Source: Actinomycetes bacterium
Lineage (GTDB): Bacteria; Actinomycetota; Acidimicrobiia; Acidimicrobiales; Acidimicrobiaceae
Assembly (NCBI GenBank): GCA_021846265.1
Contig: JAJZCF010000002.1
Coordinates: 1 to 44,486, forward strand
Direction: 5' to 3'
DNA length: 44,486 bases
The translations under genes were made by a program, and so were the position numbers. Positions 378 through 40,370 of this stretch are shown here, piece after piece. The first letter of the stretch is position 1. Each line of letters starts with the position of its first letter. The notes under the pieces were generated by a model, which was given only the letters and a program-made list of their open reading frames with translations, did no database searches and was not told the origin of the DNA.

Positions 378-1664
<1,287 letters not shown>

Positions 1665-1729: not shown

Positions 1730-1835
1730 TTCATCCACCTAAACAGTGGATGAAGGCTCACATTCACCGTGCCCTAAGGCGCGGCGATCAGGTGAATCGA
1801 CTAATTAAGGCTAGTCGAGCGCAGATCCAAAGCGC
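1730..1835. other. Tandem stem-loop array in noncoding region
   Basis: TTCATCCAC/GTGGATGAA (1730-1754), ATTCACC/GGTGAAT with inner GTGCC/GGCGC (1762-1797), TCGACTA/TAGTCGA (1797-1818), GCGC/GCGC (1819-1835). Confidence 0.55.
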
Positions 1836-2200
1836 GTGTTCTCAGCAATCCTTAACAATTTCATAGCATTTTCTCACTTTCCCCACAGCCAACAGGTCAG
1901 GGCAAAATGCACCTCAATTGCAATTGGAGTCGGGCGAATAATGGGCATTTGGCGTTTCGCTTCAAAGATAGCGGGCGGCAAAGCAGGAATACAAGGGCCC
2001 CTAACCATATCAGGTGGCAGGTTAGAATCGAGCAAGACAAATACCCTAACCGTCCGTCGGAGGAATTGATTAGTGCTGAAGCGGCCCACTCGTAACCAAA
2101 AATTCGAAGCGACCCGCTGGTCGAGCGCTTCTAGGCCTTGGAGTGGTGGCTTCGCCTTATCCTGTTCTTTGCTATTTCGCCTGACTTTATTAGCTGAGAG

Positions 2201-2292: not shown

Positions 2293-2760
2293 ATGATCTC
2301 AAGGCTACGGACTGTGCCTCGTAAAAATAGCTCTACTCTTTTGGCGCTCGTCGCCGTGGGGGGCGCTGTCGGAGCTGGTGGCAGGGTCTATCTCGAAATG
2401 GCAATGGCCAGTAAAGGCTTTCCAACTGCGACGCTGGCTATAAACCTCACTGGGGCTTTTGTTCTTGGCGTGGTAGTCACAATGGCACAGAGTTCAATCG
2501 TGCAAAATGCCGCAAAGTTTCGGGCACTATTCGGTACGGGCATGTGTGGTGGATTCACTACCTTTTCTACAGCAACCCTCGAAACTTTCAACCTTTTTCA
2601 CCACTCCCAATTCGGTTTGGGCATTGAGTATCTAATTTTGACAGTAATTGGGGGCGTACTGGCGGTATATTTTGGCATAGTGTTATCCAGATTCGTCAGC
2701 CTCGTCAACCGAAGGTTCAGGGATGAGAGGCACTATAGCGACGGACAAAGGGAGGACTAG
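2293..2760 (+). CDS. crcB: CrcB/Fluc family fluoride channel, subunit 1
   Basis: 155 aa; GGAVGAGGRVYLEM, TLAINLTGAFVLG, GTGMCGGFTTFSTATLETF; four hydrophobic segments. Confidence 0.9.
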   Translation: MISRLRTVPRKNSSTLLALVAVGGAVGAGGRVYLEMAMASKGFPTATLAINLTGAFVLGVVVTMAQSSIVQNAAKFRALFGTGMCGGFTTFSTATLETFNLFHHSQFGLGIEYLILTVIGGVLAVYFGIVLSRFVSLVNRRFRDERHYSDGQRED

Positions 2761-2763
2761 AAA

Positions 2764-3093
2764 ATGCAAGAGTGGCACGCCGCCTGCAAGCTCTATATCT
2801 ATCTAGACGAATCGCAACGTATTCACAAAAGATCCGCACTGGATTTCCTCGCTTCAAAAGCCAAAGAGGCCACTCTGGGGATGACAGTTTTCAGGGGCAT
2901 AGAAGGAATCGGTTCACACCACCATTTGCACCGAGAGCGAATACTGAGCCTCTCGGACGACCTTCCCATTGTAATTGTCCTCATCGATACCAATGAAAAG
3001 ATCGACTCTTTTCTCGACTCAATAGAGTCCCACATCGAATCATTTTTCGTCACTAAAGAATCAGTCGAAGTACTGAATCGTAAGGTGCAATAG
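2764..3093 (+). CDS. DUF190 family (PII-like fold) protein
   Basis: KLYIYLDESQRIHKRSALDFLASKAKEATLGMTVFRGIEGIG...DLPIVIVLIDTNEKIDSFL matches the DUF190 pattern; located between two crcB genes. Confidence 0.85.
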   Translation: MQEWHAACKLYIYLDESQRIHKRSALDFLASKAKEATLGMTVFRGIEGIGSHHHLHRERILSLSDDLPIVIVLIDTNEKIDSFLDSIESHIESFFVTKESVEVLNRKVQ

Positions 3094-3094
3094 C

Positions 3095-3463
3095 TTGGAT
3101 AACGTCTTTGCTGCACTAATCGGTGCGGTTGGTGCCATAGCCAGGTATCTATTTGACAGGTGGGTCATGTCAAGAACTAATGGCGACTTTCCATTAGGAA
3201 CATTTGCCGTCAATATGTCGGGAGCACTTATCCTGGGATTTCTCTTTGGCCTTCTGACCAGCCATCTGCTCTCCCACGCTGGCTACTTAATACTTGGCAC
3301 GGGACTAGTAGGAACCTATACAACATTTTCCACCCTCAGTTTCGAAAGTTTCGGGCTGCTCAGAGAGGGTCAGGTCATATCAGCGATCATAAACATGGCT
3401 GGTAGCTTTCTCGCAGGGCTGGCAATGGTCGCCCTTGGATATCTATTGGGCGTTCACCTCTAG
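3095..3463 (+). CDS. crcB: CrcB/Fluc family fluoride channel, subunit 2
   Basis: GAVGAIARYLFDRWV, GTFAVNMSGALILGFLFG, GTYTTFSTLSFESFGLL; TTG start one base after the DUF190 stop. Confidence 0.88.
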   Translation: MDNVFAALIGAVGAIARYLFDRWVMSRTNGDFPLGTFAVNMSGALILGFLFGLLTSHLLSHAGYLILGTGLVGTYTTFSTLSFESFGLLREGQVISAIINMAGSFLAGLAMVALGYLLGVHL

Positions 3464-4670: not shown

Positions 4671-4700
4671 AAAAGGGGACAGAGCATCGCTCTGTCCCCT
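4671..4700 (-). terminator. Rho-independent terminator of groESL
   Basis: AGGGGACAGAGC-GAT-GCTCTGTCCCCT on minus strand (12-bp perfect stem, 3-nt loop), followed by TTTTCGG. Confidence 0.85.
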
Positions 4701-6685: not shown

Positions 6686-6727
6686 CTAACAAGCCTCCTT
6701 GTAAGGTTTGGACCGGATATTGGCCAA

Positions 6728-6754
6728 TTAGCACTCTAGCAGTCTGAGTGCTAA
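6728..6754. promoter_or_regulatory. CIRCE element (HrcA operator)
   Basis: TTAGCACTC-N9-GAGTGCTAA, exact consensus, directly upstream of groES. Confidence 0.97.
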
Positions 6755-6831
6755 TTGCGGTAGTTATTCTTCACTTCGAGCCAAAATCTGCCAACTTTCC
6801 CGGGACGAGGTGCCAAAAGTATTCTCTGCGC

Positions 6832-17354: not shown

Positions 17355-18677
17355 TTAGCGGTCGATTGATGCGACGATCTCCTCTGCTATGCCCTGAGCC
17401 CGTGCGTGGGTTTCAGCTTCCACCATAACCCTTACCACGGGTTCAGTGCCAGAAGGGCGAAGCAGTATCCTCCCGCTACCACCTAACAGGCTTTCCGCTT
17501 TTTCAACTGCCCCTCGCACCCGATCCGACGACGCCGCCCGCTTGGAATCCGATACCGCAACAGAGATCAGCACCTGGGGGTATTTGGTCATTGCAGCCTC
17601 GGACATATCCGAGAGCTTTGCGTTTGACCTATCCAATAGGTCAATAAGCATCGCTCCGGTCAACAGGCCGTCTCCCGTAGTCGCATAGTCAGAAAAGATG
17701 ATGTGACCCGACTGCTCTCCGCCCAATGACAGTCCATTTGCCTCCATCGCATCCAGGACAAATCGATCACCAACAGGAGTGACAAACAGCGAGATTCCTA
17801 ATCGCTCCATCGCTTTGTGTAAGCCAAGGTTACTCATCACCGTGGCCGCTATCCCGGCGCCCTTTAACTTTCCACTTTCAAAGAGGTCTGGAGCAAACAT
17901 AGCCATCAGCTGGTCTCCATCCACCACTTCACCGGATTCAGTCACCGCAATCACTCGGTCAGCATCGCCGTCAAAGGCAAGGCCAACATCTGCCCCTAGC
18001 TCTAACACCGCCCTCTGCAGCGAACCAATGCTCGTCGAACCACAGTCCTCATTGATATTTCTGCCCGAAGGATTGTCGGATAGAACACGCACCACCTCTA
18101 CTCCGAGTTCGGCAAATAGCTCCTTAGCCACTGAAGCGGCGGCACCGTTAGCCAGATCTAGCACTACCCGCAGGCTTCCGCGATCTCTCCCCGACCCGAC
18201 TGAGCTTAAAATATGCTGACAATACTCAACAGAGACGTCCTCAGTGACCAATGTGCCGACGGCTCTGACAGTCCTCGGCTGATTCGAGTGCAGAAAAGCC
18301 TCAATGGAGCCCTCAACGGCCTGTTGATCCTGATCGGACAGCTTTCTCCCGCCAGCTGAAAATACCTTTAACCCGTTATCAAAATAGGGGTTATGCGAAG
18401 CCGATACAACCACCGCTGGAAGTCGATATAAGGAGGAAGCAAATGCTATAGCGCCGGTTGGGGCTACCCCGACGTCGACCACATCGACCCCCACGCTCAT
18501 AAGTCCGGCGGCCACACCAGCCACGAGCATCGGGCCAGATTCACGCGTGTCCCTGCCGACAATCACCCGGCTCGCGCCCAACACATCGCCCACGCCGATA
18601 CCCAAAGCAAGGGCCAACGAGACCGTTAAAGTCTCGTTGGCCCTGCCACGAATTCCATCTGTTCCAAAACGAAGCAA
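17355..18677 (-). CDS. glmM: Phosphoglucosamine mutase
   Basis: LRFGTDGIRGRANE, VVSASHNPYFDNGLK, FDGDADR, RPSGTEPVVRVMVEA. Confidence 0.97.
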   Translation of the reverse strand: MLRFGTDGIRGRANETLTVSLALALGIGVGDVLGASRVIVGRDTRESGPMLVAGVAAGLMSVGVDVVDVGVAPTGAIAFASSLYRLPAVVVSASHNPYFDNGLKVFSAGGRKLSDQDQQAVEGSIEAFLHSNQPRTVRAVGTLVTEDVSVEYCQHILSSVGSGRDRGSLRVVLDLANGAAASVAKELFAELGVEVVRVLSDNPSGRNINEDCGSTSIGSLQRAVLELGADVGLAFDGDADRVIAVTESGEVVDGDQLMAMFAPDLFESGKLKGAGIAATVMSNLGLHKAMERLGISLFVTPVGDRFVLDAMEANGLSLGGEQSGHIIFSDYATTGDGLLTGAMLIDLLDRSNAKLSDMSEAAMTKYPQVLISVAVSDSKRAASSDRVRGAVEKAESLLGGSGRILLRPSGTEPVVRVMVEAETHARAQGIAEEIVASIDR

Positions 18678-19563: not shown

Positions 19564-20547
19564 TCACCGGTTTAGAACTTGCTCTGGGCGGCTTTTGCGC
19601 CCAAGACACGAGGAAATAGCATAGACGGAATTGGGCACTTCACCAACCGGAAACAATAGCGGATCCAGATCCCCAGCTATAGATAACTCGCCGTAACCCA
19701 CTTCCACCAAATAGAGACCACCCGGAGGTGCTGGATAACGCTTTGTTCCAGAAGGGTACAGCACGCTTTTAGCAAAGGAGCTTACCGAGCATTTGCCCTT
19801 CCCTACCTCGACTAACGAACCTACAATGCCCCGCACCATCTGGTGACAAAATGCATTAGCCCAAATTTCGAAGTCGACAAAGCGCCCTCGCTTAGTCAAT
19901 CTCACCTCAAAAATCCGTCTGATCGTCGATGTACCCTCGGGCCCCTTTTTGCAGAATCCTGTAAAATCATGTTCGCCGATCAATGCATAAGATGCCGATC
20001 TCATCGCAGGAAGATCGAGCTCAAAAGGGACATGCCAACTGCGATCGGCGGTCAATGCGTCCCTTTCGGCTCCCGGAAGAATCCGATAAAGGTAGCGGCG
20101 GTATCTAGCCGAATGTCGAGCCGAAAAGGACTGGTCCGTCAGTCCGACCCAGTTTACCGAAACGTCGTCTGGCAATTGCCTAGCAAGCGACTGGTATAGG
20201 CCGTCAATGCCCCCCTTGTGGCTGGGCCCCGTAAAACTTATAACCTGACCTAAGGCGTGCACACCAGCGTCGGTTCGGCCAGCTACGACAATGTCAACGG
20301 GCTCGCGAAGGGCTCGCTCAATCGCTACGCCGAGCACGCCAATAACGGTCCTTTGTCCGGCCTGATAAGCAATTCCGTGATACCCAGTACCGACATAGCT
20401 GATCGACGCAGCGTAATGCAAAGCGGCCCCACCAGGGGCCGCTTCAAAATGCTGTATCTCAACCTCTAGGGCCGCAGAAGCTGAAGCATTCTCCTCGTCG
20501 AAGAGTCCGCCTTGTTCGGCTTCGCTGTCATGGTGAGACCTTGTCAC
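19564..20547 (-). CDS. truA: tRNA pseudouridine38-40 synthase with about 45-aa N-terminal extension
   Basis: [48 protein letters not shown]. Confidence 0.95.
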
Positions 20548-40346: not shown

Positions 40347-40370
40347 TGGCCTGACCAGCAGGTCAGGCCA
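40347..40370. other. Perfect hairpin in rpsG-fusA intercistronic region
   Basis: TGGCCTGACC-AGCA-GGTCAGGCCA, 10-bp perfect stem. Confidence 0.6.

Follow-up and report, generated by a model that had tools for sequence, protein, structure and literature searches.

The interval 1730–1835 of the window (the whole stretch of DNA that was analysed, 44,486 nucleotides in length) occupies part of the gap that separates a minus-strand sqdB-like gene from a plus-strand crcB-DUF190-crcB cluster (2293–3463), in which a DUF190 gene is flanked by two crcB-family genes. The genes and signals bordering this gap are listed below; the score of the sqdB-like gene against its family model, 448 bits, falls below the curated cut-off of 575 bits.

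378–1628, minus strand: sqdB-like gene, UDP-sulfoquinovose synthase family (NCBIfam NF041015, E = 2.7e-134, 448 bits)
1628–1626, minus strand: probable GTG start of sqdB, after the RBS AGGAGGT at 1638–1632, with RBS and GTG kept in 4/4 orthologues
1647–1660, no strand assigned: GGACAACGTTGTCC, a perfect palindrome of 14 bp that immediately precedes the sqdB RBS
2293–2760, plus strand: crcB, fluoride channel family, divergent neighbour (TIGR00494, E = 1.7e-24, over the cut-off)

The same gap between the same pair of genes was found in four of five genomes of the genus, the fifth being without a close sqdB orthologue. The comparison set therefore consisted of four sequences (the window, G002, G003 and G004), which count as approximately three independent lineages, G003 and G004 being near twins. 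The element in the gap is single-copy in each genome and was found only in this genus, with no clear match in other genera. A covariance-model search of 397 genomes across the order gave a clear match only in the window's own genome, from a search list that did not contain the other three element-bearing members of the genus, which probably had not been drawn; the viral contigs that were searched contained no match to the element.

The original prediction described four stems tiled back to back over 1730–1835, all of which are present in the sequence and are listed here without strand assignment.

1730–1738 / 1746–1754: stem 1, TTCATCCAC/GTGGATGAA, intact in the window, shortened in G002 and lost in G003 and G004
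1762–1768 / 1791–1797: outer stem 2, ATTCACC/GGTGAAT, broken in G003 and G004
1769–1773 / 1778–1782: inner stem 2, GTGCC/GGCGC, enclosed by outer stem 2
1797–1803 / 1812–1818: stem 3, TCGACTA/TAGTCGA, sharing base 1797 with stem 2
1819–1822 / 1832–1835: stem 4, GCGC/GCGC, whole in the window only

The distance to crcB, predicted as about 450 nt, was measured as 458 nt to the crcB start at 2293. Searches for tmRNA, tRNA and Rfam families (at the gathering score) returned no match, and no Rfam family, tRNA or ORF accounts for the region, in agreement with the claim that no convincing reading frame or known riboswitch motif explains it. Small ORFs that run through the conserved core (described below) in the direction of sqdB and are open in 4/4 orthologues, namely a 17-codon frame (MKxLRIAExxRxGSxxD) and an 11-codon frame with two Cys, were judged by eye and rejected as coding because nearly all changes are non-synonymous, that pattern alone being the ground. 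The idea that TTCATCCAC represents DnaA boxes was abandoned, since G003 and G004 do not retain the sequence.

On both strands, the segment 1710–1860 folds better than its dinucleotide shuffles (plus strand, −45.4 kcal/mol, z = −3.90; minus strand, −52.4 kcal/mol, z = −3.70), as the original prediction had proposed to check, and the GC-corrected energy of the region ranks 7th (plus) and 8th (minus) among 1479 segments of 120 nt. The folding of the reported region is thus unusual, not extreme, and perfect hairpins of at least 9 bp with loops of at most 10 nt occur at several other places in the 44-kb window. Longer perfect hairpins of 10–14 bp were noted at 4674–4700, 6725–6757, 18610–18644, 20421–20444 and 40347–40370, some of which may be terminators.

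Across the four orthologues, the stems are retained to very different degrees: pairing amounts to 69% for stem 4 (68.8% of cells), 72% for stem 1, 82% for outer stem 2, 95% for inner stem 2 and 100% for stem 3. The dyad of stem 3, CGACTA-N8-TAGTCG, comprises 20 bp that are identical in 4/4 orthologues and lies within the conserved core; as it never varies, it gives no covariation and is silent on RNA structure. The orthologues contain two double-change pairs, a number reached by 352 of 500 shuffles, so that the covariation by which the predicted RNA was to be judged is no greater than in the shuffles. Excess folding is seen on both strands of the window and of G002 (z = −3.8 to −4.8) and missing in G003 and G004 (z = −0.5 to −1.0), the minus-strand values being −3.8 and −4.0 in two orthologues and −0.7 and −0.5 in the other two. 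When the window is compared with G002, folding has survived above the level expected from random substitution (fractions of 0.000–0.105, depending on test and strand), and the hairpins may possibly have a role in the sqdB leader of this sub-lineage. Folding is stronger on the minus than on the plus strand in 4/4 orthologues, which weakly hints at the direction of sqdB. G003 alone has three repeats of a short unit around ACAAAAGTTTAAAGAG immediately downstream of the element (L011, just below 1259).

Taken with these comparisons, the observation behind the original prediction was confirmed and its interpretation partly supported. A non-coding element does exist in the gap, but its reading as a novel structured RNA is not supported in the form described, given that stems 1, 2 (outer) and 4 are not kept and that G003 and G004 lack excess folding. 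The suggestion that the minus-strand transcript would be a leader of sqdB is a sensible guess as to direction. The best reading is that the reported hairpins lie mostly in the sqdB leader and are unconserved beyond one sub-lineage.

Conservation of the gap is concentrated elsewhere. The window and G004 are most alike over 1800–1888, with an identity of approximately 92%; the value is approximately 55% over stems 1 and 2 and drops abruptly to a near-random level on the crcB side of approximately 1889. The peak exceeds most of the sqdB coding DNA that was compared (72–90%). Of the reported interval, the core overlaps just the final third, and the strongest conservation is thus mostly outside 1730–1835. 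A second identity peak of 92–98% between the same two sequences covers the first sqdB codons (1577–1640), well above the remainder of the gene. The core and the heptad units that can be read in it are as follows.

1798–1889, minus strand: conserved core, proposed sqdB operator and promoter region, delimited by identity between the window and G004
1840–1846, plus strand: fourth, distant heptad-like TCTCAGC, 21 bp from the next and invariant in 4/4
1861–1867, plus strand: heptad unit TCATAGC
1872–1878, plus strand: heptad unit TCTCACT (TCTCACC in the relatives)
1883–1889, plus strand: heptad unit CCACAGC (GCTGTGG towards sqdB)

A degenerate unit (CTTAACA, approximately 1851–1857) lies between TCTCAGC at 1840–1846 and TCATAGC at 1861. 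The part of the core at 1798–1838 is left unexplained by the array, and sigma-70 promoter scans detected no convincing conserved −35/−10 pair.

The site bound by PhoP of Mycobacterium tuberculosis is TCACAGC-N4-TCACAGC, and tandem tri- and tetra-repeats are bound more tightly (PMC4832192). Direct 7-bp repeats with a 4-bp spacer, as in a PhoP-type operator, are present at 1861–1889, and three copies of TCACAGC at 11-bp spacing have their unique best match in the window at 1861 (16/21 among 88,916 positions) and a unique best match at the same place in each of G002, G003 and G004 (17/21). The chance of such a match in simulation is approximately 0.0015 per 664-bp region, or approximately 0.004 when three published consensuses are allowed; several consensuses were tried. 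Counting against the match, the middle unit fits TCACAGC at just 4/7 positions in the window, and the 11-bp periodicity of the core is only modest when judged without a consensus. The array resembles the M. tuberculosis PhoP boxes in its three tandem heptads with 4-bp spacers and in the presence of two close PhoP homologues in the genome; it differs from them in that the putative site reaches only 16–17/21 with a poor middle unit, and in that the gene controlled here would be of a different lipid-gene type.

A comparable array was found before sqdB in g6, another genus of the family, whose sqdB orthologues share approximately 70% protein identity. In 5/5 g6 genomes, CTGTGAA-N4-GTGTGAA is located 144–148 bp before sqdB, oriented as in the window. 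A matrix built from the g6 sites alone ranks the window core first of 88,916 positions and also places the core first in G002 and G004, the second match in G002 being the pst promoter box. The score was reached by chance in 15 of 13,200 simulated regions and, for the whole window, in 14 of 200 simulations. Against this stands a control with 13-bp spacing, which was also top-ranked at a lower score (15.7 versus 18.1) and has not been explained away.

It is established for other bacteria, reportedly including cyanobacteria, that sulfolipid takes the place of phospholipid when phosphate is limiting, and the genes next to sqdB in sister genomes belong to phosphate uptake. In G002, a pstBSCA operon is convergent with sqdB and a methyltransferase gene; in G004, pstC and pstA, as far as the contig reaches, are arranged in the same way; and in the window's genome sqdB lies at the contig end, with pst and the methyltransferase on another contig. 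The pst promoter in this genus carries its own TTYAC repeats at 11 bp, and a pst-box matrix ranks the window core only approximately 72nd; its top plus-strand matches in G002–G004 fall on the core. Points of likeness to the PHO boxes of Escherichia coli PhoB and Streptomyces PhoP (GTTCACC-N4-GTTCACC) are the 11-bp repeat period, the adjacency of pst and sqdB in sister genomes and the GTTCACC-like repeats of the genus pst promoter; however, the sqdB units are nearer to TCACAGC/CTGTGAA than to GTTCACC or CTGTCAT, and they are in the opposite orientation to the pst boxes of the genus.

The genome encodes five OmpR-family regulators at the threshold used. The nearest solved relative of two of them is M. 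tuberculosis PhoP (E = 1.7e-75 and 5.4e-71), and one is a homologue of M. tuberculosis RegX3 (E = 1.1e-58). In the DNA-reading helix of the first PhoP homologue, Asn212, Glu215, Tyr217 and Tyr220 are kept, with Val213 replaced by Ile and Ser216 by Thr, so that a candidate cognate regulator with a matching recognition helix, as a PhoP-type operator demands, is encoded in the genome.

These sequence comparisons suggest that the core at approximately 1798–1889 probably serves sqdB as promoter and as operator for tandem binding of a response regulator, with the hairpins mostly in the leader. The three heptads resemble TCAYAGC on the plus strand and CTGTGAA when read towards sqdB; with 4-bp spacers they stand one helical turn from each other, and together with the more distant fourth they would be bound in tandem by an OmpR/PhoB-family regulator. 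The likeliest binder would be one of the M. tuberculosis PhoP homologues, a RegX3/PhoP-type phosphate regulator being the alternative, and its binding, presumably governed by a phosphate signal, would switch leftward transcription of sqdB. The dyad CGACTA-N8-TAGTCG would be placed close to the promoter or the transcript start, and the other stems (1730–1797) would fall in the 5′ leader as hairpin-forming sequence kept in the window/G002 sub-lineage only.

Several other explanations were considered. That the hairpins are neutral or fortuitous palindromes which happen to adjoin a conserved promoter and have no function is possible though on balance doubtful: stems 1, 2 and 4 decay in the sister lineage, where there is no excess folding, yet z is near −4 in the window and G002 and retention between these two is better than random. 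As neutral hairpins are compatible with the operator/promoter reading, the confidence given to the two overlaps. The main rival to the operator/promoter reading, slightly less probable than neutral hairpins, is that the minus strand encodes a cis-acting structured leader RNA for sqdB, comparable to a riboswitch or an attenuator. The transcript would begin near 1854, from the extended −10-like TGCTATGAA; the loop of hairpin 3 contains CCUUAA, with which UUAAGG would pair, and a fast-evolving expression platform would be made up of the hairpins downstream. UUAAGG, CCUUAA and hairpin 3 are invariant in 4/4 orthologues, the minus strand folds better throughout, window-G002 folding is retained beyond random substitution, and the order of a conserved core and then a variable part able to fold recalls a riboswitch; the region also resembles the cis-regulatory leaders of Rfam in being hairpin-rich, upstream of a biosynthetic gene and provided with a conserved core. 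Unlike those leaders, however, it matches no family, shows no covariation (pairs that are conserved show no variation, and the stems that vary are unconserved) and does not conserve its stems; in addition, G003 and G004 lack excess folding, the excess over shuffles is equally strong on the plus strand, the element is single-copy and genus-limited, and the core is best explained by a DNA motif common to another genus. A combined form, in which a genus-specific sqdB RNA leader with the UUAAGG/hairpin-3-loop pseudoknot would sense phosphate, sulfur or lipid status alongside a promoter controlled by a response regulator, is improbable.

An independent small RNA transcribed from the gap would fit the compact folding and the conservation outside coding sequence, but it is very improbable, since no terminator-like U tract follows the hairpins, the stems are not conserved, and the conserved part differs from the strongly folding part. 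A decayed mobile element, MITE or REP-type repeat, which the back-to-back inverted repeats might recall, can be set aside almost entirely: a mobile repeat should occur in several copies, whereas there is one copy in the genome, situated between the same gene pair in four genomes and absent from viral contigs. A new RNA is not demonstrated, and the core has the look of a common type of DNA switch.

If the operator/promoter reading is right, sulfolipid synthesis through sqdB would be tied to a PhoP/PhoB-type two-component regulator in uncultured Actinomycetota of acidic habitats, and a regulator site of one kind would be common to two genera. As a caution, a hairpin cluster beside a conserved promoter can mimic a structured RNA.

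Two sequences outside the core were also noted. A near-copy of half of the conserved dyad, CGCCAAACCTTAATTAGTCG, was found in L183 at approximately 1501–1520 (G000 C157:22782–22801) between ndk-like and mreB-like genes, with one change in G002; this second near-copy, before the mreB-like gene, looks unrelated. The palindrome GGACAACGTTGTCC before the sqdB RBS, for which two further GACAACGTTGTC occurrences in the genus (G001 and G002) showed no clear regulon, is kept in 4/4 orthologues while its flanks vary, is the only match in the window at up to two mismatches (0.07 expected), and has the look of a putative LacI-family operator.
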